A stretch of DNA of 64,000 nucleotides, taken from Oscillatoria sp. CS-180. Lineage in GTDB: Bacteria; Cyanobacteriota; Cyanobacteriia; Phormidesmidales; Phormidesmidaceae. The first letter of the stretch is position 1; every line of letters starts with the position of its first letter. The DNA lies in assembly GCF_028330965.1 (NCBI RefSeq), contig NZ_JAQMUB010000021.1, positions 1-64,000 on the forward strand, given 5' to 3'. The notes beneath the pieces are model-generated. The model saw only the letters and a program-made list of their open reading frames with translations. It was not told the DNA's origin and ran no database searches. The position numbers were made by a program, and so were the translations under genes. Shown in pieces: positions 8,943-41,121 of the stretch.

Positions 8943-10004
8943 TTAGGTGGCGAACTCTGCAACTGCGATCGCACAGCCGCCGTTATTGAGGGAGTGGGTA
9001 AGCGCCGTCAACACCCTGACTAGCTCTGTACCAACCCGTCCTGAAGATTGACTAGAGACGTTCTGTTGCTGGATGCACTGGATAAAGTGCTGGCAAACTT
9101 CTGCGAGGGGTTCCTGCTGCGGAATAGGAATGCTTTCACGCTGAAGGCCGTTAGGACAAAAGCGATCGCCTTCCACCTCCAATGCTCCCCACTGTAGAAC
9201 TAGGGGCTGTGGCTGCATTTCGTCAAAGATGAGTGTGCCGCGATCGCCCACAACACCTAAACGCCTTTGCTTGTCTGGATTTGCCCAGCTGACGTGCAGC
9301 GTTGCTTGAAAGCCACTGGGATACTGTAACTGTATCCAAACGACATCGGCGATGCCTTGGGAACCATGGGAAAGCTGACTGGATAGAGCACGATTAGGTT
9401 GCAGCCAAGTTTGTCCCTGTGCAGAAACTAATGCGGGTGTTTCCCCGAGCCAATGGTTAAAGATTGCAATGTCGTGAATGGCCAAATCCCACATTGCATC
9501 TACGTCACTGCGAACAGGCCCCAAATTTGTTCGAGTGGCATAGCCATAATGCACATTGCCTAACGCCTTGGTTGAGAGCAGTGATTGACCCTGTGCAACT
9601 ACGGGATGAAATAAGTAGGTATGGTCCACAATGAGCTGACGATCGTGCTCGGCTGCTAGAGCGCACAGCTCATGGCACTCTTGGATAGACAGCGTTAACG
9701 GTTTCTCGACCAAGACGTGCTTATGAGCTTTTAAGGCTGCTTTGACCAACGCATAGTGGGTGGCGGCAGGCGTTGCGATCACGATCGCATCAATATCAGT
9801 TCTGGCTAATACCGTTGTTCCGTCTGTCGCAAGGTCAACGGTGTCGGCTAGCTCAAACTGATTCCGAATCATTGAGTGACGATTAGCGTTGGGTTCCACA
9901 ACCGCCGCAACGTTAACAGTTGAAAGACTCAAAAAATTTCTAAGAAGATGGTTGCCCCATCGCCCGACGCCAAATTGGGCTAATCGAATGCGATCGTTGT
10001 TCAT
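8943..10004 (-). CDS. Gfo/Idh/MocA-family NAD(P)-dependent oxidoreductase
   Basis: A 353-residue cytoplasmic dehydrogenase, probably acting on a sugar or nucleotide-sugar. The N-terminal Rossmann domain has GVGRWG (residues 12-17), and the family's catalytic EKP triad is at 100-102 in HVLVEKPLTL. The C-terminal domain has MWDLAIHDIAIFNHW, where the Asp173 and His177 pair fits the active-site D...H signature. A nearby polysaccharide deacetylase and glycosyltransferase point to a surface-polysaccharide role, but they are transcribed in the opposite direction and the substrate cannot be read from sequence. The start codon is the ATG at 10004. Confidence 0.88.
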   Translation of the reverse strand: MNNDRIRLAQFGVGRWGNHLLRNFLSLSTVNVAAVVEPNANRHSMIRNQFELADTVDLATDGTTVLARTDIDAIVIATPAATHYALVKAALKAHKHVLVEKPLTLSIQECHELCALAAEHDRQLIVDHTYLFHPVVAQGQSLLSTKALGNVHYGYATRTNLGPVRSDVDAMWDLAIHDIAIFNHWLGETPALVSAQGQTWLQPNRALSSQLSHGSQGIADVVWIQLQYPSGFQATLHVSWANPDKQRRLGVVGDRGTLIFDEMQPQPLVLQWGALEVEGDRFCPNGLQRESIPIPQQEPLAEVCQHFIQCIQQQNVSSQSSGRVGTELVRVLTALTHSLNNGGCAIAVAEFAT

Positions 10005-10499
10005 ATACTTTAGACAGAAAATTTCAAGTGGGATTTTGCTTCGTGAACCATGAAGAAATCCAAGGGCTAGGATTGAAAAAAATCTTCAATCTTTGCTAGA
10101 TAATCGCAATCTCTCCTGATATTCAGGGTGCCCAGATTAAGCTGTTGTTCATCCAACGGCTTGGAGAGCCTTTTTTTGGTTGCTAAGGTCTCGGTGCCTG
10201 TTAAACTAAATTCCAAAGGTCTTCAGGATAGTTTTGATTAATCGGTAAGAAACTAATACGCTGAATTTTAGAGGGCAACTTTCTCAAAAGAAAATTCTAT
10301 TGAGCAATCGAGCACCAGCGTTTTAATCTTTTGAGAATATTTTTGAAAATTCACACAACAAAGCTGAGTTGATCTCTAGGGTCATCATCACAGATTCAGC
10401 CTTTGGGATGAGGCAACTTAGCTACCGATATAGTTCAATACTCCAAGGCCTGATAGATGGCGGTGTGTCTATGCACGGTTGCTATCGGCATTTTGAATC
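10005..10499. other. AT-rich intergenic region between divergent genes
   Basis: No gene is seen. It must hold promoters for the oxidoreductase (leftward) and the deacetylase (rightward). There is a short weak hairpin (GGCT...AGCC followed by seven T) near 10163-10180 that could end a small transcript, but the stem is too short to call. Confidence 0.4.
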
Positions 10500-26855: not shown

Positions 26856-29321
26856 ATGTTTGAACGCTTCACAGAAAAAGCCATTAAAGTCATTATGCTC
26901 GCCCAGGAAGAGGCCCGCCGCTTGGGTCATAACTTCGTAGGGACCGAGCAGATTCTCCTTGGTCTTATAGGGGAAGGTACAGGCGTTGCTGCTAAAGTTC
27001 TCAAATCGATGGGCGTCAATCTCAAAGATGCGCGCATCGAGGTCGAGAAGATCATTGGTCGCGGCTCTGGGTTTGTTGCGGTTGAAATTCCCTTCACCCC
27101 TCGCGCTAAGCGAGTTTTAGAGCTGTCCCTTGAAGAGGCACGTCAATTAGGTCATAACTACATCGGTACGGAACATTTGCTGTTAGGGCTGATTCGCGAA
27201 GGCGAGGGCGTCGCTGCCCGCGTGTTGGAAAACTTGGGTGTTGATTTGTCCAAGGTCCGCACTCAAGTTATTCGAATGTTGGGTGAGACCGCAGAGGTTT
27301 CCTCTGGAGGCGGCCAAGGTCGTACTAAGACACCTACTTTAGATGAGTTCGGTTCCAATCTGACTCAGATGGCGGGTGAGGGTAAGCTTGATCCGGTTGT
27401 CGGTCGTCAAACTGAAATTGAGCGTGTCATCCAGATTCTGGGCCGTCGAACGAAAAACAACCCGGTCCTCATTGGTGAACCAGGAGTCGGCAAAACTGCG
27501 ATCGCTGAAGGACTGGCTCAGCGCATTACCAACGGTGATATTCCCGATATTCTTGAAGAGAAGCGTGTCGTGACTCTGGATATTGGTCTGCTCGTTGCAG
27601 GTACCAAATACCGGGGTGAGTTTGAAGAGCGACTCAAGAAGATTATGGATGAAATCCGCTCTGCCGGAAATGTCATCCTGGTCATTGATGAAGTTCACAC
27701 GCTAATTGGTGCCGGTGCTGCTGAGGGCGCCATTGACGCTGCTAATATCCTGAAGCCTGCTTTGGCACGGGGTGAGTTGCAGTGCATCGGTGCGACCACG
27801 CTAGACGAGTATCGTAAGCATATTGAGCGCGATGCTGCTCTGGAACGTCGTTTCCAGCCCGTGATGGTGGGTGAGCCTAGCGTTGAGGAAACAATTGAGA
27901 TTCTTCATGGTTTGCGCGATCGCTACGAGCAGCACCACAAGCTCAAAATTACTGACGATGCCTTAGATGCTGCTGCTAAGCTATCGGATCGATACATCTC
28001 AGATCGATTCTTGCCCGATAAGGCGATTGACTTAATTGATGAAGCGGGTTCTAGGGTTCGCCTCATCAATTCGCAATTGCCGCCTGCTGCGAAGGAGCTG
28101 GATAAGGAACTGCGTCAGGTTCTTAAGGATAAGGACAATGCGGTTCGGTCTCAGGACTTTGATCGAGCGGGTGAACTGCGCGATCGTGAGATGGAAATCA
28201 AGGCCGAAATTCGCAGTATTGCTCAGAGCAAGAAATCCGAAGGCGAGAATGGCGACGACATGCCCTTCGTCGGTGAGGAAGATATTGCTCAAATTGTGGC
28301 CTCTTGGACGGGCGTACCCGTGAACAAACTCACGGAATCTGAGTCCGAAAAACTGCTGCACATGGAAGATACCCTGCATCAGCGGTTGATTGGTCAAGAC
28401 GAGGCTGTGAGGGCCATTTCACGGGCTATTCGTCGGGCACGAGTCGGACTTAAGAACCCCAACCGACCCATCGCTAGCTTTATCTTCTCGGGTCCAACAG
28501 GGGTAGGTAAGACTGAGCTAACGAAAGCATTGGCGGCCTACTTCTTCGGTTCTGAAGACGCCATGATTCGGCTTGATATGTCCGAATTCATGGAGCGCCA
28601 TACGGTTTCCAAGCTTATTGGTTCCCCTCCTGGCTATGTTGGCTATAGCGAAGGCGGGCAGCTTACTGAGGCTGTGCGTCGTCGCCCCTACACGGTGGTC
28701 CTGTTTGATGAGATTGAGAAGGCACATCCTGATGTCTTCAACATGCTGCTTCAAATTTTGGAAGATGGTCGCCTAACTGATGCTAAAGGACGCACGGTAG
28801 ATTTCAAGAACACGCTGCTGATCATGACCTCTAACATTGGTTCGAAGGTGATTGAGAAAGGTGGCGGCGGTTTAGGCTTCGATTTCGAAGACGATCACGC
28901 AGAATCTCAGTACAACCGCATCCGTTCCCTCGTGAATGAGGAACTGAAGCAGTATTTCCGTCCTGAGTTCTTGAACCGCTTGGATGAGATTATCGTCTTC
29001 CGTCAGCTCACGAAGGATGAGGTTAAGGAAATCTCTGACATCTTGTTGAGAGAAGTCTTTGGTCGTCTGACTGAGCAAGGAATCGAGCTTCAGGTGACTG
29101 ATCGATTCAAGGATCGTTTGGTGGAAGAGGGCTACAATCCTAGCTATGGTGCTCGACCGTTACGTCGTGCAATTATGCGGCTTCTGGAAGATACTCTGGC
29201 TGAGGAAATCTTGTCTGGTCGCCTGAAAGAGGGAGATACAGCAATGGTTGATGTTGACGACTCTGGTAAGGTCGTTATCAGTCCCGGCGAACGTCGCGAA
29301 CTGTTATCAGCAGCTGATTAG
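26856..29321 (+). CDS. clpC: ATP-dependent Clp protease ATPase subunit ClpC
   Basis: An Hsp100 unfoldase that feeds substrates to ClpP, essential in cyanobacteria and plastids. From the ATG at 26856 ([14 protein letters not shown]) it has 821 residues, the expected size. The N-terminal double Clp repeat (about 1-150) is followed by AAA domain 1 with Walker [10 protein letters not shown] near 207, Walker B VIDEVH, a UVR motif region near 430, and AAA domain 2 with GPTGVGKTE near 546 and DEIEKAH. The C-terminus is typical. The in-frame TTG at 26844 is a weaker start. A hairpin terminator follows at 29356. Confidence 0.98.
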
Positions 29322-29355
29322 GCGCTGGCGATTCCAGAAACTAATTGACATTGAG

Positions 29356-29385
29356 CGGCAACTTCTTTCTAGAGGTTGCCGTTTT
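29356..29385 (+). terminator. Intrinsic terminator of clpC
   Basis: CGGCAAC (29356-29362) pairs with GTTGCCG (29375-29381) and is followed by TTTT. The loop is 12 bases. Confidence 0.75.
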
Positions 29386-29528
29386 GTTAACTTTCTTGAA
29401 GTCGATTCTCTGATACCTTGCGTTGTCTCTTCAGCAACCTCAATAATAATCAGCATAGGTTTTCGGTGATATATCTCTTCGAAATCTGATTGCAAAATTT
29501 AGCGATAAGACCAGCTGGGAGTATTGAC

Positions 29529-30008
29529 ATGGGTCTGATTAAGAAAGTTTTTGGGGGTATTTTTGCCTTCATCGGTGGCATCTTTGGCGGTCTCTTTAAG
29601 GGAAAGAAAAACGAATTCTTTATGGAGCTTGAAGAGGCAGCTGCTCCCGTTTTGGAAGCTGTTGAAGCGAATACACCTTCTGTTCCAGAGGCGGCAAAAC
29701 CAGCAGCAGCACAAGCTGACGCAACGCTTGCTAAACAGAAAAAAGCAGCTCCTGCTGCCAAGAAATCTGCTAAATCAACGACAGCTTCTCAGCCGCCGGC
29801 TGATCTAGCACAAGCATCGTCTCTTGCAGAAGCGACAGCCCCCATGTCAGCTCCTGTTAAAGCTGACATGCCCACGGTCAAAAACTTCTCGACTGACTAT
29901 TTGGTGAACCCTAAGGTGAACCGTTCGCCGCGTCGCCGTCCAGGCCCTAGCGTCGGTCCTTTCAAAGAAATGGCTCGTGATCTTAAGAAATCGCCTTCTA
30001 TGGGCTAG
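29529..30008 (+). CDS. Cyanobacterial hypothetical protein with glycine-rich amphipathic N-terminus
   Basis: A 159-residue protein from the ATG at 29529, preceded by GGGAG about ten bases upstream. The first 26 residues (GLIKKVFGGIFAFIGG then IFGGLFKGKK) form a glycine-spaced hydrophobic/basic helix that could bind membranes. The middle (about 35-105) is a low-complexity Ala/Lys/Pro/Glu linker. The end holds NFSTDYLVNP, then RRRPGPSVGPFKEMARDLK, a motif I recall from other cyanobacterial proteins of unknown function. It follows clpC on the same strand but after a terminator, and has its own terminator at 30044. I do not recognise a function. Confidence 0.7.
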   Translation: MGLIKKVFGGIFAFIGGIFGGLFKGKKNEFFMELEEAAAPVLEAVEANTPSVPEAAKPAAAQADATLAKQKKAAPAAKKSAKSTTASQPPADLAQASSLAEATAPMSAPVKADMPTVKNFSTDYLVNPKVNRSPRRRPGPSVGPFKEMARDLKKSPSMG

Positions 30009-30043
30009 CGCGGTTTCCCTGAAAGCTTCATAAGAACTGAATG

Positions 30044-30080
30044 ATAGCCAAGCAGATTCTCTAGTCTGCTTGGCTATTTT
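30044..30080 (+). terminator. Intrinsic terminator after the glycine-rich hypothetical gene
   Basis: ATAGCCAAGCAGA (30044-30056) pairs with TCTGCTTGGCTAT (30065-30077), a perfect 13-bp stem with an 8-base loop, followed by a T-run. Confidence 0.9.
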
Positions 30081-30111
30081 CCTGAAATGGACAAACCAGA
30101 CAAACCAATGG

Positions 30112-30516
30112 TTATGAAGAAATGCGATGCCTCACACTTCGAGCCTGCAGCCAGCGTAGCCAGAGCCAACCGATAAAACAGCCGATCGCGTAGTAGGGAA
30201 AGTCGTCCCAAGTAAAAGTGTTTCCTAGCACCAATCGTCCTACTAAAGTTGCTCGAATGGCTTGCAGCCATGCGGGTTGCCAGAGCTGTAGACATTCAAG
30301 AATACAGGTGGCAATCAAAATAGATAGAGCAACGGTTACTGGACGAAGACTAGGGATGATGATGGCGAGAAGCAGCATCCAGAAGATTTCATAGGGAATG
30401 CCTCCGAAGGTGTCATTGAGCCAAGCTTCACCAGCGCCTTGATAAAACTTGGTCACCAACCCAAAAGGCACGATAAAGGCCATGCTCAACAATAGATTGC
30501 GACGATATTGACTCAT
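30112..30516 (-). CDS. DUF2809-family membrane protein
   Basis: A 134-residue integral membrane protein with four predicted helices. The family pattern is seen in ATCILECLQLWQPAWLQAIRAT, then LVLGNTFTWDDFPYYAIGC, matching the 'E..QL....WL...R.T..G...LG..F.W.DL..Y..G' signature of DUF2809 (VanZ-like). The function is unknown. The ATG at 30516 is chosen; the frame opens from a TTG at 30537. It is convergent with the gene at 29529. A coding-like open stretch lies directly upstream and ends 18 bases before this start. Confidence 0.75.
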   Translation of the reverse strand: MSQYRRNLLLSMAFIVPFGLVTKFYQGAGEAWLNDTFGGIPYEIFWMLLLAIIIPSLRPVTVALSILIATCILECLQLWQPAWLQAIRATLVGRLVLGNTFTWDDFPYYAIGCFIGWLWLRWLQARSVRHRISS

Positions 30517-30533
30517 AGGAATACGTATTGATA

Positions 30534-30686
30534 TCAATTTATCTGAAATATTGGACTAATTTTGGGAATTTTGCCTCTTTCCGAGCGTTGGGTTGCGATC
30601 GCAGTCACGATAGCGCCTAGATTATCGTTGGCTTGCTGGATAGAATCAGCCCCTACAGACAATAAGCCTAAAATCTCAGGCGTCCT
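30534..30686 (-). other. Coding-like open stretch without a good start
   Basis: On the minus strand a frame of about 50 codons ending in TGA at 30534 reads EILGLLSVGADSIQQAND, then LGAIVTAIATQRSERGKI, which has ordinary protein composition. Stops occur in the same frame immediately upstream, and only a TTG could serve as an initiator. It may be the decayed end of a gene that once preceded the DUF2809 gene, or a chance frame. Confidence 0.25.
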
Positions 30687-30822
30687 TCATTAAACTTTTG
30701 GATTGTTAGGCGATCGCCTATAGTCTTCCCCACAAGCTTTTAGCATTCTCTGCTCCGAAGGGGGTATTTCTGTGGCACTCTGAGAGTGGCGTATTCAGTA
30801 AATCTATTGAGACTTAAGGGCT

Positions 30823-32049
30823 ATGCAAACCCTTCCTTCCCCTCCTTCTTTGTCCACACCTACCGAAGCCGAATTTGACACAACGATTCATCGTCGGAAA
30901 ACTCGTCCTGTTAGAGTCGGCGACGTCATTATTGGTGGGGGTGCTCCTGTTGTCGTTCAGTCGATGATCAACGAAGACACGCTGGATATCGAAGGATCTG
31001 TCGCTGCCATTCGTAGACTGCACGAGATGGGTTGTGAAATTGTGCGGGTGACCGTACCCAGCATGGCTCATGCAAAAGCGCTTGCTGATATCCGGGAAAA
31101 GCTTGAAAAAACTTACCGTCGCGTACCTTTAGTTGCAGATGTGCACCATAACGGTATGAAGATTGCCTTAGAAGTGGCTAAGCATGTTGATAAGGTTCGC
31201 ATCAACCCAGGACTATACGTTTTTGAGAAGCCGCAGTCTGGTCGTACTGAATATACCCAAGCAGAGTTTGAGGAAATTGGCAGCAAGATTCGCGAGACAT
31301 TGGAACCTCTTGTGGTTTCCTTACGGGAGCAGAACAAAGCAATGAGGATCGGCGTGAATCATGGTTCTCTTGCTGAGCGCATGTTGTTTACCTATGGCGA
31401 TACCCCCGAAGGGATGGTGGAATCGGCTTTGGAGTTCATCCATATCTGCGAATCTCTTGACTTCCGTAATATTGTTCTCTCCCTCAAAGCGTCACGGGTA
31501 CCCGTCATGCTGGCAGCGTATCGGTTGATGGTGAAGCGCATGAATGAATTGGGTATGGACTACCCTCTGCATTTGGGAGTGACAGAAGCGGGTGATGGTG
31601 AATATGGTCGCATCAAATCGACTGCTGGTATTGGTACCCTGCTAGCTGAAGGGATTGGTGATACCATTCGTGTCTCTCTCACAGAAGCGCCGGAAAAAGA
31701 AATCCCAGTTTGCTACAGCATCCTGCAGGCACTGGGACTTCGTAAAACTATGGTGGAATATGTCGCCTGTCCTTCCTGCGGACGTACGCTGTTCAACTTA
31801 GAAGATGTCCTGCATGAGGTCCGTGAGGCAACCAAACATCTCACCGGTTTGGATATCGCGGTTATGGGGTGTATTGTGAATGGACCTGGAGAAATGGCAG
31901 ATGCTGACTACGGCTATGTCGGAAAAACGCCTGGATATATATCGCTCTATCGAGGACGCGAGGAGATCAAAAAGGTCCCCGAAGATCAGGGTGTTGCGGA
32001 GCTGATCAATTTGATTAAGGCAGACGATCGCTGGGTTGATCCTGAATAG
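30823..32049 (+). CDS. ispG: 4-hydroxy-3-methylbut-2-enyl diphosphate synthase (GcpE)
   Basis: An iron-sulfur enzyme of the MEP isoprenoid pathway; the cyanobacterial form takes electrons from ferredoxin. The 408 residues carry the family motifs [46 protein letters not shown] and [13 protein letters not shown]. The 4Fe-4S ligands lie in [15 protein letters not shown] and [20 protein letters not shown]. The first 25 residues are a variable leader. Upstream bases 30687-30822 include a GGCGATCGCC palindrome but no clear operator. Identification is certain. Confidence 0.98.
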
Positions 32050-32284
32050 TTTGGCCTTGGATGTTGCTTATGGCGGGATGAGTTTTAAATTTGAGATCTT
32101 TAAATTAACTCCGTCTCCCTTGTCATATCGGGTGTAGTGAAACCAACTCATGATCTCAGGCCTTTCTTACTGTTTACTCAGACAGCCTGACTATGATGTA
32201 TATACTTGTTCACAACCTGATCTAGCGAAGCGCGTCTATTGAGCTTGTGCTAAATTGGGCATAATTGCCGACGGAAATAATTTT

Positions 32285-33568
32285 ATGGCGATCGCAAAGC
32301 GAGGATTGATTCTAGGGGCAACGGCTGTGGCTGTTGCTGGCGTCATTGTGACAGGTGCCGGACTTCACCTTTCTCAGGGCAAAGCTTTTTTTGAAGAAAG
32401 TCCTAAAGAAGTCATTGATGAAGTTTGGCAATTAATTGACAACACGTATGTCGATGCCACTTTCAATCAAGTTGATTGGGAAGCGGTGCGAACCGACTAC
32501 TTGGGCCGTGAATACACGTCTCAAGATGCTGCTTACGAAGCGGTTCGCGAAATGCTGGAACTGCTTGAAGATCCCTACACTCGCTTCATGGATCCTCAAG
32601 AATTTCGCAACATGCAGATCGACACCTCCGGCGAGCTGACTGGGGTTGGTATTCAAATTACTCAAGAAGAGGAAACAGACGAAATTGTTGTCGTCGCTCC
32701 CATCGAAGATACCCCCGCTTTTGAGGCGGGATTGCGCTCCCAAGACGTCATCGTCAAGATCGATGGCGAGAGTACTGAAGGGATGGAACTCAATGATGCT
32801 GTCAGCAGAATTCGAGGCACTGTCGGCTCTACGGTCACGATAACGGTTCGCCGTGATGACGAATTAATTGACTTTGATTTGACTCGTGCTCGTATTGAAA
32901 TTCATCCGGTTCGTTTTTCCATTAAAGACGAACCGGAAGGCCCGATTGGTTACATTCGCCTGACCCAATTCAGCAACAATGCTTCGGGTGAAATGCGTGA
33001 TGCGATTGAAACTCTGGAATCCGAGAATGTAGTGGGCTACATTCTCGATTTGCGATCAAACCCAGGAGGGCTTCTCTATTCCAGTATTGAAATTGCTCGC
33101 ATGTGGTTGGATGATGGACCGATTGTCTCTACCGTTAACCGCCAAGGCATCGTGGATGAAGAGATAGCCAACAATCGAGCAATGACAGACAAGCCGCTGG
33201 TTGTTCTGGTTGATGGAGGCTCTGCCAGCGCTAGTGAGATTTTGTCGGGTGCCCTTCAGGATAACGATCGCGCTCAGCTGGTCGGAACACAAACCTTCGG
33301 CAAAGGTTTGGTCCAGTCTGTTCGTAGCCTGCCAGACGGCTCCGGCGTCGCGATCACAATTGCCAAATATCTTACGCCTAGTGGACGTGATATCAATCAG
33401 CAGGGTATTGAACCCGATATCACTGTCGAGCTTTCTGACGAAGAACGTGAATCACTGTCGGTGGATCGAGAGCGTATTGGGACATTGGAAGATCCTCAGT
33501 ACGCTCGGGCACAGGAGTTGCTGCTGCAAACGGTTCGCTCTGGGCAAAGCACAGCTGAACTGCAATAG
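32285..33568 (+). CDS. ctpA: Carboxyl-terminal processing protease (S41)
   Basis: A 427-residue lumenal/periplasmic serine protease of the CtpA-CtpC group; one paralogue in cyanobacteria trims the D1 precursor of photosystem II. The N-terminus has a hydrophobic signal segment (LILGATAVAVAGVIVTGAG). A PDZ domain (about 105-195) carries LTGVGIQI and DVIVKIDGEST. The catalytic core has ILDLRSNPGGLL, the serine motif GGSASASEIL (about 311-320) and the lysine in TFGKGLVQ (about 340). I chose the ATG at 32285 rather than the TTG at 32255. Which paralogue it is cannot be decided here, so the symbol is provisional. Confidence 0.92.
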   Translation: MAIAKRGLILGATAVAVAGVIVTGAGLHLSQGKAFFEESPKEVIDEVWQLIDNTYVDATFNQVDWEAVRTDYLGREYTSQDAAYEAVREMLELLEDPYTRFMDPQEFRNMQIDTSGELTGVGIQITQEEETDEIVVVAPIEDTPAFEAGLRSQDVIVKIDGESTEGMELNDAVSRIRGTVGSTVTITVRRDDELIDFDLTRARIEIHPVRFSIKDEPEGPIGYIRLTQFSNNASGEMRDAIETLESENVVGYILDLRSNPGGLLYSSIEIARMWLDDGPIVSTVNRQGIVDEEIANNRAMTDKPLVVLVDGGSASASEILSGALQDNDRAQLVGTQTFGKGLVQSVRSLPDGSGVAITIAKYLTPSGRDINQQGIEPDITVELSDEERESLSVDRERIGTLEDPQYARAQELLLQTVRSGQSTAELQ

Positions 33569-33820: not shown

Positions 33821-34390
33821 TTAATAACAGTATCGACCGTTTCTATTAGGGTAAAGCTGTTCTTCGCCCTTGCGAGTCGCTCCAATCAGGGTGGACACAA
33901 CAACGCATCGGTTTTTAGCAACACCATCTCGGCTATCTATCGTAAGGGTGCTCAAGCGATAGCGGACATTGCCTTGAAAACCAAAGCGGACGTAATAGGT
34001 GCCTTCTTTCTTGGCCAACGTTGTGTCATTTGGGTCTAAGACAAGGTTTGGATGAAGGGCTTGCCAATTTTTGACGTCTTTCCAGTCCGTTGTATTGGCA
34101 TGAACAGCCCATTCAATTCGATTGTCGGTCTCGCGTAAGCTAAACCGCCAAGAATGGCCATGGGCGATCGCAGCGCTCTGGGCTTGCTGGATACCTGAGC
34201 GCAGTTCATCACGGGCAACAATCACCTGCTGATTAGCCCAAAATTTAAGCCAGGAGGGAATTGCGATCGCCGCCAAAATGCTGATGATGACGACAACGAT
34301 TAATATCTCAATGGCTGTGAACCCCGCGTTGGATGAGCAGTTGCGCCGCTGGGCGCATTCTCGGCTTCGAGAATAGATCATGTTCGGCAC
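33821..34390 (-). CDS. Type IV pilin-like protein (GspH/FimT type minor pilin)
   Basis: A 189-residue pseudopilin. The prepilin peptidase site is AGFTAIEILIVVVIISILAA (residues 22-41), with Gly before Phe and Glu at +5, followed by the hydrophobic N-terminal helix. The globular part has cysteines near the end (KNRCVVVST and NGRYCY) that could form a disulfide. The pattern RDELRSGIQQAQSAAIAHG fits GspH/FimT. It would be cleaved by PilD and join a type IV pilus or competence pseudopilus. A second pilin-like gene lies at 40660, but no assembly genes are in the window. Confidence 0.85.
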   Translation of the reverse strand: MPNMIYSRSRECAQRRNCSSNAGFTAIEILIVVVIISILAAIAIPSWLKFWANQQVIVARDELRSGIQQAQSAAIAHGHSWRFSLRETDNRIEWAVHANTTDWKDVKNWQALHPNLVLDPNDTTLAKKEGTYYVRFGFQGNVRYRLSTLTIDSRDGVAKNRCVVVSTLIGATRKGEEQLYPNRNGRYCY

Positions 34391-36105: not shown

Positions 36106-36416
36106 GGCTCTTCTCAGGTCAAAGCATCGTTTATAGGACTTATGCTGGCCCTTGCATTCTCCGATCCTGGCGGACGTTGAATCCAGCTTCCCCATATTTG
36201 GAGGTTAAGGAGCTAAAGCCAGTTGTCCTCATTCAGAGAAGATAACCTGTGGGGCGAGCAATGGGATAGGTGCGGCTGAGAACGTATTAATACTACGTGC
36301 GGCTTCATGATTTGGCATATGAGATAATCGCTTGCATTGCGCGTGGTGCAGTGCTGAGCGTTGGTGAAGCCTCGCCTCGGGCGTTTGCACCCAACTGGAT
36401 AGGAGGAGAGTCTTGC
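36106..36416. other. Divergent intergenic region with a strong ribosome site
   Basis: No gene is seen. The right end carries AGGAGGAGAG at 36401-36410, ideally placed before the ATG at 36417 and fixing the start of the next gene. Promoters for atzG-atzE (leftward) and for the membrane-protein pair (rightward) should lie between. Confidence 0.5.
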
Positions 36417-38195
36417 ATGCGATCGCCCGCCCCTATGATCCTCAAAGGAATTCAACAGGCTTTTGCGCCTACACCTCGTTCTCTCAAACATCCAAAAGTT
36501 CGCTTTTGGTTTTGTCTAACGCTGGCGTATGCCGCGATGGTGGCTGTCTTAGTGTGGGATTCGGTTTCTGGGGAACCGTATGCGATCGCTGATGATGCCC
36601 GTCAGCATGTGGTTTGGATGCTGCGCTTTACAGACGCTGAGCTTTTCTCAAACGATTGGATCGCCGATTACTTTCAGTCAGTCTCCCCCATAGGCTATGC
36701 CTGGCTTTATAGACTGTTTGCCTGGCTCGGTATTCCACCCCTCGCTTTTGCTCAAATTTTGCCTTCTATCTTGATTGTGCTGACGGCGATAACTGCTTTC
36801 TTGGCCTGTTTAGAGCTATGTGCATTACCTGCCACGGGTTTTGCTGCCGTTGCCATGTTGAACCAATCCGTTGAGTTTGTGAACGCCGTCGCCTCTGGAA
36901 CGTCAAAGGCCTTTGTCTTTTTGTTTGCACTCCTGTTCCTAGTGGGATGGCTGCGGCGATCGCGCTGGCTGACTTGGCTATCGATTGCTCTGCAAGGGCT
37001 TTTCTCTCCTCAGACAGTCCTAATTGCTTCTGGTGTGATGGTGTTGGGACTAGCAGAACGACGGGAGGGACGCTGGCAGATCAAAACAGAGCGTTCGTAT
37101 TGGATCCTAACGGCGGGAGGGTTAATTGTCGCCGCGACCGTGATTCTTAGCTATGGGCTTACTTCCGGTCAGTTTGGACCAACGATGACCGCTGAACAAG
37201 CACTGACCATGCCCGAATTTTTCCCCAGGGGACGCAACCAATTTTTTCGGTCTGATCTGGTGGAATTTTTACTGTATGGGCGTAGTGGACTGCGATTGGA
37301 TATTGCACTCACTCCGGTGACCAACCTCTTGGCGCTGTCGTTGCCTATCTTGTGTTGCTATCCGCACAGATTCCCTTTAGTGCAGACGGTGAAACCTCGA
37401 ATTCATCTCTTCACTCATCTTTTAATCAGTGCGCTGGGCTGGTTTTTCCTGGCCCACATGCTGCTATTCAAACTGCATCTGCCCAGCCGCTACACAGGTC
37501 GCTTCTTCCTATTGGTCTTGGCTTTAGCGGGAGGAATTGCTCTTATCATCTGGGTAGATGCATTGCTGAGATGGGCGATCGCAGCCTTGTCTCCTTCAGC
37601 AAAAGCATCTGGCCAATTCAAATCTTGGCTAGTGTCAGGGCTATCAACCGGACTTGCGATCGCCCTCATGCTCATCTTGGTGCTCTATCCTGCAACCATG
37701 TCCGGCTACCCCTCTACGTCTGTTGCCAAAGGGCGCGAGATAGAGCTGTACCAGTTCCTAGCCAACCAACCAAAGGACAGCATGGTGGCAGGACTCTCAG
37801 CCGAAATCAGTAACATTCCGAGTTTCTCGCTTCGCTCTGTTTTAGTGAGCTCTGAGGTTTCGATTCCGTATCATGTTGGGTACTACACGGTGCTGCGTCA
37901 GCGGACTCAGGATGTGATTAGGGGACAATACACGCCTGATGCTGCAATCCTCAAAAGCATCATTGCTCAATACGGCATTACGCACTGGCTGCTGAGTGCG
38001 ACGTCCTTTGATGTAGGTACGGTGAACGGCGATCGCTGGATACAGCAATATCAGCCAGAGGGTGGTCAGGCCATCAGCGTTTTGACGAGTCAGCAAGTAC
38101 CAGCCCTTCAGCGCCTAAGCTCGTCCTGCACAGTCTTTCAATCTGACCAGCACCAGTTGATCGATGCCCAATGTTTGCTTAGTGCAGAAGATTAA
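36417..38195 (+). CDS. GT-C-like polytopic membrane protein, first tandem copy
   Basis: A 592-residue protein with roughly ten to twelve hydrophobic helices and a soluble C-terminal part of about 150 residues. After the first helix comes an extracytoplasmic loop with IADDARQHVVWMLRFTDAEL (Asp59, Asp60) and DYFQSVSPIGYAWLYRLF. An acidic pair in the first loop is the hallmark of GT-C glycosyltransferases that use lipid-linked sugars. Other shared blocks are LYGRSGLRLDIALTPVTN, HLPSRYTGRF and SNIPSFSLRSVLVSSEVSIP. A paralogue follows 192 bases downstream. The start is fixed by the AGGAGG at 36401. Function is inferred from topology only. Confidence 0.75.
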   Translation: MRSPAPMILKGIQQAFAPTPRSLKHPKVRFWFCLTLAYAAMVAVLVWDSVSGEPYAIADDARQHVVWMLRFTDAELFSNDWIADYFQSVSPIGYAWLYRLFAWLGIPPLAFAQILPSILIVLTAITAFLACLELCALPATGFAAVAMLNQSVEFVNAVASGTSKAFVFLFALLFLVGWLRRSRWLTWLSIALQGLFSPQTVLIASGVMVLGLAERREGRWQIKTERSYWILTAGGLIVAATVILSYGLTSGQFGPTMTAEQALTMPEFFPRGRNQFFRSDLVEFLLYGRSGLRLDIALTPVTNLLALSLPILCCYPHRFPLVQTVKPRIHLFTHLLISALGWFFLAHMLLFKLHLPSRYTGRFFLLVLALAGGIALIIWVDALLRWAIAALSPSAKASGQFKSWLVSGLSTGLAIALMLILVLYPATMSGYPSTSVAKGREIELYQFLANQPKDSMVAGLSAEISNIPSFSLRSVLVSSEVSIPYHVGYYTVLRQRTQDVIRGQYTPDAAILKSIIAQYGITHWLLSATSFDVGTVNGDRWIQQYQPEGGQAISVLTSQQVPALQRLSSSCTVFQSDQHQLIDAQCLLSAED

Positions 38196-38387
38196 ACAGG
38201 TAGAGGCTAACGGATGCAGACGGTAGCTCGGCTCTTGCCGAACCATGAGGTGATCGGCCCCTAGACTGTCTGAATGCTGATAGTTTTGGTTTGTCTGAAC
38301 CTGAAGAGCTACGGCCACCAAACCTCACAATCATGCGTCAAGAGTTTCACCACTAGCGCCGCTTGGAAAACCACTTCAACAGCTGCA

Positions 38388-40175
38388 ATGTCCGAAAATA
38401 ATTATTCTCTATTCTCAATGCCTCTCAGCGCTTTGACGGGTCAAACAAAGCGGGCGTACCTGTTCTGGTTGGTTGCTACGCTGGCGTTTGCGGCTTACTA
38501 CGGTGTGTTGGCCGTGCACCAAGCCTTTGAGAGTCCCTATGTCATTCAAGACGATGCTCGTCAGCACATTTTTTGGATGCAGCGATATGTTGATGCGAGT
38601 CTATTTCCCGATGATCTGATTGCTGATTATTTTCAAGGCGTTGCGCCTCTGGGCTATCGCTTACTTTACAAAACAGCGACTCTGGTTGGTCTCCAGCCAG
38701 CCTTCTTGGGCAAAATTCTTCCTCCTATTCTGGCTTTTATCACGATTTTCTACTGCTATCAGGTCAGTCTGACGCTTTTTGCCATTCCTTTTGCCGCGTT
38801 TATCTCATCAGTTAGTTTTAATCAGAGTTTGTGGCACTCTAGCGAACTGGCCTCTGCCACGCCTAGGGCTTTTCTATATCCTCTTTTCTTGGCCTTCCTG
38901 TACTATTTGCTTCTTAACCGAAACCGAGTTTGCTTGGCTGTCATCGCATTGGAAGCTTTGTTTTATCCCCATGTGGCCCTCATCTCTCTGGGTATTTTGA
39001 CGGTGAGGTTGGTTCGATGGCGCGATCGCAAACTTTCCTTTTCCAAAAAGTCCGCAGACTATTGGTCTCTAGGAGCAAGCTTGCTCTTAGCCGGCGGCAT
39101 TATTCTATTCACCCGCAGTTCGTTTGATTTTGGCGAGGTAGTCACTCGGAGTGAAGCCTTGAGGATGCCTGAATTTCAGGCGGATGGTCGCAGCGCTTTT
39201 TTCACCCCCGGATTACAGTTTTGGCTTTATGGCCGGAGTGGAATTCTGCACGATCGCTGCTTTACTCCAGCAACGCTAGTTGCTGGTGCACTATTACCTG
39301 TACTTCTGTGGCTGCCCGCCAACCAGTCTTATAAAAGAGTCGTCAGCTCAAAAGTGGGCTTACTTTTACAGGTTTTGCTGGTTTCTTTTGGACTGTATGC
39401 GTTATCGCATCTGTTGCTGTTTGAACTGCATTTACCTAATCGGTATACGAGCCATACCCTTCGCGTTGTGATCGCTTTAGCCTCAGGTATGGGCTGGTTA
39501 ATTCTTTTGGATAATTTTCTCAGAGTTGGTCGAGCGATCTCGTCCTTTCTGAGTACAAAAATTAGCAGTGTCCGATTTGCAAAGTTCACCTCTTTTGCTG
39601 CTCAAGGCGCTAGCATTTGCGTCTTAGCGCTGTTTCTGGGAGGCGTCGCGCTTTATCCAACCCTATTTTTTGAGCAATTCCCAAAAGTTAGTTACGACAA
39701 TCTAAGCCCTGGAAAACCAATTTATGATTATCTGTTAGGCCAGCCCAAAGACGCCAAAATCGCCTCATTGTCCAATGAAGCTAGCAATATACCAACCTTT
39801 GCTGCCCGTACAGTATTAGTCTCGCCTGAGCACGCTTTGCCTTATCACAAAGGATATTACAGCCAAATTCAACAGCGCATTAGCGATCTGATTAGCGCGC
39901 AGTACACGACTGAACCTGAGGTTCTTTTGCAAACTGTCGAACGTTATGGCATTGACTATTGGTTAGTAGATAAAAACGCTTTCCAAACCGCTTATGTCGC
40001 TGAGAATAAGTGGCTAATGCAGTTTCAACCAGCGGCAGCTGAAGCGGTTCAGACGTTGGAGGCAGGCGAGCAGACAATTTTAGAGCGATCGCTGTCTGCT
40101 TGTAATGTCATTGAGACAGAGAACTGGTTGCTCTTAGAAAGAAGCTGTATTCAACAATTTGTCAATGCTTTTTAA
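38388..40175 (+). CDS. GT-C-like polytopic membrane protein, second tandem copy
   Basis: A 595-residue paralogue of the preceding gene with the same layout: IQDDARQHIFWMQRYVDASL (Asp55, Asp56) after helix one, DYFQGVAPLGYRLLYK, LYGRSGILHDRCFTPATL, HLPNRYTSHT, and a soluble end with SNIPTFAARTVLVSPEHALP and YHKGYYSQIQQRI. Alignment by eye shows conservation over the full length, strongest in these blocks, so the pair arose by an old tandem duplication. The ATG at 38388 is chosen; the frame opens at 38274, and no strong ribosome site marks the start. The soluble tail ends with two cysteines. The role is probably transfer of sugars at the periplasmic face, unproven. Confidence 0.75.
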   Translation: MSENNYSLFSMPLSALTGQTKRAYLFWLVATLAFAAYYGVLAVHQAFESPYVIQDDARQHIFWMQRYVDASLFPDDLIADYFQGVAPLGYRLLYKTATLVGLQPAFLGKILPPILAFITIFYCYQVSLTLFAIPFAAFISSVSFNQSLWHSSELASATPRAFLYPLFLAFLYYLLLNRNRVCLAVIALEALFYPHVALISLGILTVRLVRWRDRKLSFSKKSADYWSLGASLLLAGGIILFTRSSFDFGEVVTRSEALRMPEFQADGRSAFFTPGLQFWLYGRSGILHDRCFTPATLVAGALLPVLLWLPANQSYKRVVSSKVGLLLQVLLVSFGLYALSHLLLFELHLPNRYTSHTLRVVIALASGMGWLILLDNFLRVGRAISSFLSTKISSVRFAKFTSFAAQGASICVLALFLGGVALYPTLFFEQFPKVSYDNLSPGKPIYDYLLGQPKDAKIASLSNEASNIPTFAARTVLVSPEHALPYHKGYYSQIQQRISDLISAQYTTEPEVLLQTVERYGIDYWLVDKNAFQTAYVAENKWLMQFQPAAAEAVQTLEAGEQTILERSLSACNVIETENWLLLERSCIQQFVNAF

Positions 40176-40659
40176 GCAAAGTCTGACGCCACATAACAGT
40201 GTTGAAATAATATTTAATCAACCGTAATCAATAAGTCTTTAAATCTGTGCATCTTTCTTGAAATAGCGATAAAGTCGCTGCACTGATTGACCGTTTTCCT
40301 CATAAAGAAAACATAAAGTTCGTTCTAGTGAATGTGTTGTGCTCTTGAACTTGCTGCTGTTCTTCAGGTTTGTCCAGAAAAGTTTCCGCATAGGTACTTA
40401 GCTGGGTCTGATGATCTGCGGAAAACACGGGGTGTTTTTCTCAGGTGCGTCAAGACACAACTGTGCATCCTACTGAGTTCCGTTGCTGAATCGATAGCAA
40501 CGCAATTTTTAAACAAGACTTCTAATTCTCTATGAGAGTTCCGGTGGAAACCGCAAATCCACGGACTGCAATTTCTGACCGATTGCAGCTTGGAAGTCTG
40601 CCTTCGTGCAATCAGGGGTGCAGATTCGTTGCCGTGCAGTTAGCCCAAAATTAAAATCA
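40176..40659. other. Intergenic region before the pilin gene
   Basis: No supported gene. A 67-codon frame at 40332-40535 shows no protein features. The left half is AT-rich. Confidence 0.4.
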
Positions 40660-41121
40660 ATGAACACTCGTTGGAGAACCCAGAACGGTTTCACCCTAAT
40701 TGAGTTGATGGTGGTCATGGTTGTTTTGGGTGCCCTAGCAGCTATTGCTTTTCCAGCCTATTCATCAATGATTCGCCGTGCCCGCTATGCCGAGGTAAAG
40801 CATCAGATGGGCTCAATAGCAGAAGAGGCACACATGTATCGAGTGGAATATGGCGAGTATCCTGAGGAAACTGGTGTAGGTCAACAACCTGATGGCATCT
40901 CAAATTGGCCTGAAGTTGGGGAGGTCCCGATGGATGGACAATATGATTACGACAACTGGTCGGTAGACAATAATCAGTGCTATGTCCAGATTGGATTTGT
41001 TGCTGAAGGGGCTGACTCTCCATATCCACAAGATACGGTTAACACGCAACCTTTGTCATTCAAGGAATTCGATGACAGTCTAGTCATGGGAATTGCACTT
41101 GAGGGTTGTTCGGCTGAATAG
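40660..41121 (+). CDS. Type IV pilin-like protein
   Basis: A 153-residue prepilin. The cleavage site is NGFTLIELMVVMVVLGALAA (residues about 9-28), with Gly-Phe and Glu at +5, followed by IAFPAYSSMIRRARYAEVK, as in PilE/PilA-type pilins. The globular domain is short, with cysteines in NNQCYVQIG and LEGCSAE that would form the C-terminal disulfide loop. The ATG at 40660 is chosen; the frame opens at 40606 but the leader before the basic MNTRWRTQN would be too long for a prepilin. A clear terminator follows. No other pilus genes are nearby, so it may be a minor pilin. Confidence 0.88.
   Translation: MNTRWRTQNGFTLIELMVVMVVLGALAAIAFPAYSSMIRRARYAEVKHQMGSIAEEAHMYRVEYGEYPEETGVGQQPDGISNWPEVGEVPMDGQYDYDNWSVDNNQCYVQIGFVAEGADSPYPQDTVNTQPLSFKEFDDSLVMGIALEGCSAE

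Follow-up and report, generated by a model that had tools for sequence, protein, structure and literature searches.

Two adjacent genes of a cyanobacterial genome encode membrane proteins, A and B, that belong to one uncharacterised, so far cyanobacterial, family with a predicted GT-CA fold; the family is new, the enzyme class is known. We propose that its members are probably GT-CA glycosyltransferases that use a polyprenyl-phosphate sugar for a periplasmic glycan or glycolipid on its way to the cell surface. The extracytoplasmic glycosyltransferases behind cyanobacterial surface glycans are poorly known, and the family provides a concrete way into an unassigned glycosylation pathway of mat- and bloom-forming genera, e.g., Okeania, Trichodesmium, and Lyngbya, because its GT-C fold is clear, its putative catalytic residue can be tested, and its partner genes are conserved, while the libraries searched hold no match to it.

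A Tandem Pair of Paralogous Membrane Proteins

The window analyzed (G000:C59:1-64000, the whole stretch of 64,000 nucleotides) comes from a 6.5 Mb cyanobacterial genome. As an earlier note made from the sequence had claimed, two full-length paralogous ORFs lie head to tail in it (Table 1), separated by 192 bp. BLASTP alignment of A with B gave 207/568 identical (36%) and 311/568 positive residues (E 6e-111). An in-frame GTG at 36297 is a possible upstream start for protein A, but the ATG at 36417 is more plausible. The DDARQH motif follows the first transmembrane (TM) helix in both proteins, as had been noted. Both also share LYGRSG, HLP[SN]RYT, and SNIP.F..R[ST]VLVS; only in protein B, however, does the last block end in the RTVLVS that had been ascribed to the two of them, A having RSVLVS instead. 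Besides the A/B pair, the source genome carries two further family copies, at C59:115151-116785 and C87:17562-19229, making four in all.

Table 1. Coordinates of the gene pair and its main features in the window
Feature	Position	Strand	Description
Protein A (P0001, 592 aa)	36417..38195	+	Diverged subfamily; GT-C-like membrane protein of several passes, ending in a soluble domain
Protein B (P0002, 595 aa)	38388..40175	+	GT-C-like multi-pass membrane protein; modelled member, cluster-associated clade
DDARQH of protein A, residues 59-64	36591..36608	+	Asp pair where the tip of juxtamembrane helix 1 is expected
DDARQH of protein B, residues 55-60	38550..38567	+	Asp pair, N-terminal tip of predicted helix 55-67
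Protein B loop WHSSELASAT, residues 149-158	38832..38861	+	Site of the family's second acidic pair (152/153)
Protein B C-terminal soluble domain, residues 436-595	39693..40172	+	Near-invariant Cys572 and Cys587; likeness to AfAglB-S2 C-terminal domain

Predicted Fold and Active Site

An AlphaFold2 model of protein B, built from the alignment, was of high confidence (pLDDT 93.1, pTM 0.92); the fold of protein A is assigned by homology, at 36% identity. When the model was searched with Foldseek, all 28 matches at E<=1e-3 were GT-C proteins (best 1e-7), among them oligosaccharyltransferase catalytic subunits, DPY19, AftA, ALG9, ArnT, AftD, and Pmt4. With VIA-align, the best match was STT3 (Z 20.3, 501 aligned residues, 5.4 A), and PglB (Z 19.9), Pmt4 (Z 18), and ArnT (Z 15.8) also scored highly. 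The C-terminal domain of B, taken alone, matched that of AfAglB-S2 (3vu0) with Z 10.4 and 2.8 A over 129 residues. Identity to the structural matches is about 8-15%, indicating a common fold and not close kinship. The GT-C likeness suggested by the earlier note is thus borne out by structure comparison down the whole list of matches, and on the strength of the model we consider it almost certain that the family has the GT-C fold.

In GT-CA enzymes, the first juxtamembrane helix (JM1), between TM1 and TM2, carries at its tip an Asp essential for catalysis, and two juxtamembrane helices between these segments characterize the class (PMC12041299). In AftB this Asp lies within a DD motif (PMC12041299), and in PimE and others it likewise sits at the JM1 tip (PMC12041525). 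In the model of protein B, TM1 is helix 21-46, helices 55-67 and 77-85 precede helix 104-131, and D55/D56 open helix 55-67. With two predicted juxtamembrane helices and a conserved Asp at the JM1 tip, protein B as modelled has the structural features of the GT-CA class. D56, R58, W63, D76, P350, and R352 are found in 78/78 homologues and D55 in 76/78, so that both points on which the earlier note had made its reading depend, a predicted GT-C fold and conservation of the Asp pair among homologues, came out in its favor.

Cys572 and Cys587 are almost invariant among homologues and would probably form a disulfide in the C-terminal domain. The second acidic pair is present in most family members; it is S/E in protein B, and protein A has neither acid. 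A WWDYG-type motif, which oligosaccharyltransferases have in the C-terminal domain, is absent from both A and B, as judged by direct reading of their sequences; protein B has LSNEASNIP as its conserved stretch. Positive charge marks loops 174-181, 207-223, and 380-396, and loops 47-103 and 428-595 have a net acidic character; this pattern would fit an active site and a C-terminal domain that face outward. We infer that the N terminus is inside and that the first outer loop, like the C-terminal domain, is periplasmic. D56, together with D55, would then serve at the JM1 tip as catalytic base or nucleophile. Glycosyltransferase activity is, in our estimate, likely.

Recognition and Distribution of the Family

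Searches of Pfam, NCBIfam, and PDB sequences with the single proteins returned no family match, and a 52-row family profile compared with model libraries recovered no known family. The STT3 model (PF02516) matched none of the 52 family members and nothing in the source genome, while the same search found STT3 in four archaeal controls. The Pfam PMT_2 and PMT models matched neither the single proteins nor the 52-row profile, and comparison of the family profile with neighboring PMT_2 proteins, a weak test given the few sequences, revealed no similarity. A literature search, of incomplete coverage, found no description of the family. The family therefore does appear undescribed, as had been supposed, in that Pfam, NCBIfam, and PDB sequences hold no match to it.

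When bacterial and archaeal genomes were scanned, 41 family loci were recovered, 40 of them on contigs titled as cyanobacterial; no relative was found on the viral contigs scanned. Within the phylum, a profile search detected the family in 52/386 sampled genomes and 34/142 genera, a distribution that is widespread yet patchy. A very distant relative (L078:6104-7807, 125 bits), in which QDDFRQ replaces QDDARQ, comes from another class of the same phylum. One contig titled Chloroflexaceae (L040) has a family gene with a broken frame, along with a neighbor common to Oscillatoriales loci, and may be a misassigned cyanobacterial contig. This neighbor is otherwise shared with cyanobacterial loci, and L040 was not taken as proof of spread beyond cyanobacteria.

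Divergence of Proteins A and B

A tree of 78 sequences places A in a clade of six members and B in one of eleven, both with SH-aLRT 100; judged from this phylogeny, the two are old paralogues and not products of a recent duplication. Members of the A clade lack W279 (L in 6/6, against W in 72/72 of the others), as well as the acidic pair 152/153, R359, D523, and Q54; they retain D55, D56, R58, D76, H341, P350, and R352. This pattern of residues points to an altered substrate cavity in proteins that would still be catalytic, and protein A probably uses a different donor or acceptor from B.

Genes of the two clades were seen near each other only in this window and in one other genome (G058), where, on one strand, an A-type gene is succeeded by GT2, lyase-like, flippase-like, and B-type genes in that order. 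A-type and B-type genes lie on separate contigs in G006, and a tandem of two A-type genes occurs in G003. The B orthologue of G003 (L070:7872-10840) is cut into two parts by transposase-like ORFs (9322-10399, minus strand). Adjacent family genes on the same strand occur in 12/60 loci, between members of various clades, a pattern for which recurrent duplication and rearrangement account more readily than an obligate A-B pair would; most loci elsewhere have a single family copy. The heterodimer that the earlier note had envisaged is not supported: given the clade separation and the locus survey, an obligate A-B pair was dismissed as a general rule.

Partner Genes in Relatives

A recurring cluster near B relatives consists of a GT2 gene, a gene for a 530-residue protein without a Pfam match, a PF03706/TIGR00374 flippase-like gene, and the family gene. 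Among 60 loci, which are not independent but cover several cyanobacterial families, a flippase-like gene lies within 8 kb of the family gene in 14, a lyase-like gene in 13, the orthologous GT2 in 9, another DPM1-like GT2 in 3, and a PMT_2-type GT-C gene in 13. The partners are thus nearby in a minority of relatives only. The flippase-like and lyase-like genes have one match each in the source genome, so few such neighbors would be expected by chance (by our estimate, about 16 kb out of 6.5 Mb). The best NCBIfam matches of the GT2 are AglJ, PpgS, PgfS, and ArnC-type enzymes, all below cut-offs. A model of the lyase-like partner, F2, matched polysaccharide lyases and GH127-type enzymes with TM about 0.3; the model is of low confidence (pLDDT 66), and architecture alone is taken from the match.

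GT2, transporter candidate, and GT-C gene occur together in L001, L003, L005, L053, L055, L070, L071, L073, and L076. The richest candidate locus for experiments is L076 (3298-16130), where the full set, flippase-like gene included, is accompanied by a second DPM1-like GT2 gene and a PMT_2 gene, and where the family genes number three. At L003:6419-7936 and L053:6834-8396, the family gene is adjoined by a gene for a multi-pass protein of ~510 aa with an N-terminal WRDE motif and no Pfam match, possibly a second undescribed GT-C-like family. The window contains none of the GT2, lyase-like, and flippase-like partners. In the source genome they are clustered on contig C23, at 29034-32531 (within L063:7034-10558, about 29034-32558 of the contig), with no family gene adjoining.

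Proposed Function and Alternatives

Because B relatives adjoin GT2, flippase-like, and lyase-like genes, extracytoplasmic glycosylation of the three-component type is the best explanation for the family. A DPM1/AglJ/GtrB-like GT2 would make the donor, a polyprenyl-phosphate sugar; the flippase-like LPG_synthase_TM protein would move the lipid sugar across the membrane; and the family enzyme would transfer the sugar to a periplasmic glycan or glycolipid destined for the cell surface. Protein B would represent the clade of the cluster-associated enzyme, its likely partners being those encoded on C23, and protein A a specialized subfamily that keeps the catalytic Asp in a remodelled cavity and probably acts on another donor or acceptor. 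GT-CA enzymes draw on polyprenyl-phosphate or -diphosphate sugars, and the neighboring GT2 genes lend indirect support to such a donor here. A lipid-phosphate monosaccharide is, on balance, the favored donor; the donor class is less certain because the best structural matches, oligosaccharyltransferases, use lipid-PP-oligosaccharides and not lipid-P-monosaccharides. Decoration of either a surface polymer or a protein had been suggested by the earlier note. Gene neighborhood favors a surface glycan, and protein glycosylation is less supported.

The same structural matches allow another reading, in which the family works like an oligosaccharyltransferase or ligase and a protein or polymer receives a lipid-PP-oligosaccharide en bloc. 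STT3, PglB, and AglB head the matches, C-terminal domain included, and most members have the second acidic pair in loop 149-158, a position that we take to be reminiscent of the oligosaccharyltransferase DxD loop. However, A and B are without the WWDYG-type motif, PF02516 matches nothing in the genome, in a search that was positive for the archaeal controls, and the neighbors are GT2 genes like lipid-P-sugar synthases, with no recognized oligosaccharide assembly set. We regard this reading as unlikely. Still less probable is a non-catalytic role as scaffold or glycolipid binder. A GT-C fold can serve without glycosyl transfer, as in GPI-transamidase subunit U (PIGU; PMC12041525), which is also among the structural matches, but an acidic residue at the catalytic position in 78/78 homologues would be unexpected for a scaffold, and this alternative is very improbable.

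Two further alternatives arise from the surroundings of the gene pair. An A-B heterodimer, with B as the catalytic subunit and the remodelled A as regulatory or acceptor-binding partner, would agree with the same-strand adjacency of the genes here, with the loss from A of several otherwise conserved residues, and with the GT-C complexes Pmt1-Pmt2 and EmbA-EmbB, entries for which are among the structural matches. Against it, A retains the Asp pair, R58, D76, H341, P350, and R352, the clades are deep and separate, and A-type genes stand away from B-type in G006 and in tandem with each other in G003; we consider such a complex quite improbable. The pair is also flanked by type IV pilin-like genes, GspH-like and ComP/PilE-like, at 33821-34390 (minus strand) and 40606-41121 (plus strand). 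PMT-type GT-C enzymes glycosylate proteins, and glycosylation of pilin or another protein, tied to these flanking genes, could be envisaged. When the co-occurrence was checked, pilin-signature genes stood beside the family in this window only among the loci scanned, so the pilin link of the earlier note was set aside. A terminator-like hairpin at 40481-40502 also separates the pair from the pilin gene, though such matches are no commoner than in shuffled sequences, and promoter and terminator scans in general were at chance level. Glycosylation of pilin or another protein tied to these genes is accordingly very improbable.

We therefore retain, as the probable reading, the assignment to GT-CA glycosyltransferases of surface-glycan synthesis. 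A more tentative extension, for which the case is weaker than even, is that the family is a new GT-C family at CAZy level, apparently confined to cyanobacteria, whose expansion has given functionally distinct paralogues and which carries out the final step of a surface-glycan pathway not yet described, together with a transporter of another type (LPG_synthase_TM) and an associated lyase-like protein; the A clade would use another donor or acceptor through replacement of residues in the cavity, its catalytic Asp being preserved.

Comparison with Known Systems

With the GT66 oligosaccharyltransferases (STT3, PglB, AglB), the family shares the GT-CA fold, the C-terminal domain (3vu0, Z 10.4), and the Asp of the first outer loop; unlike them, it is only 8-15% identical in sequence, has no Pfam STT3 match and no WWDYG-type motif, and occurs in another gene context. 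GT66 enzymes also have an acidic metal-binding motif in their second outer loop; the family shows an acidic pair at 152/153 in most members, SE in protein B, and neither acid in protein A. GT-CA transferases that use lipid-phosphate sugars (ArnT of GT83, PMT of GT39, ALG enzymes, EmbB of GT53, AftA, AftB, and AftD) resemble it in TM core, JM1/JM2, and JM1-tip Asp, with a DD motif as in AftB, and the neighboring GT2 suggests the same kind of donor; in contrast to these enzymes, the family has no significant Pfam match, and the PMT_2 profile comparison was empty.

A three-component model has been put forward for extracytoplasmic glycosylation, and the gene set of the family resembles such systems (PMC11127046). 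The family differs from the known examples (GtrA/GtrB/Gtr* and the GT136 system of Citrobacter youngae) in that its transporter candidate is of the LPG_synthase_TM/TIGR00374 type instead of GtrA or MATE, a lyase-like protein comes in addition, and the partners in the source genome are on another contig. In some relatives, as in those systems, a GT2 candidate, a transporter candidate, and a GT-C protein are encoded in one cluster.
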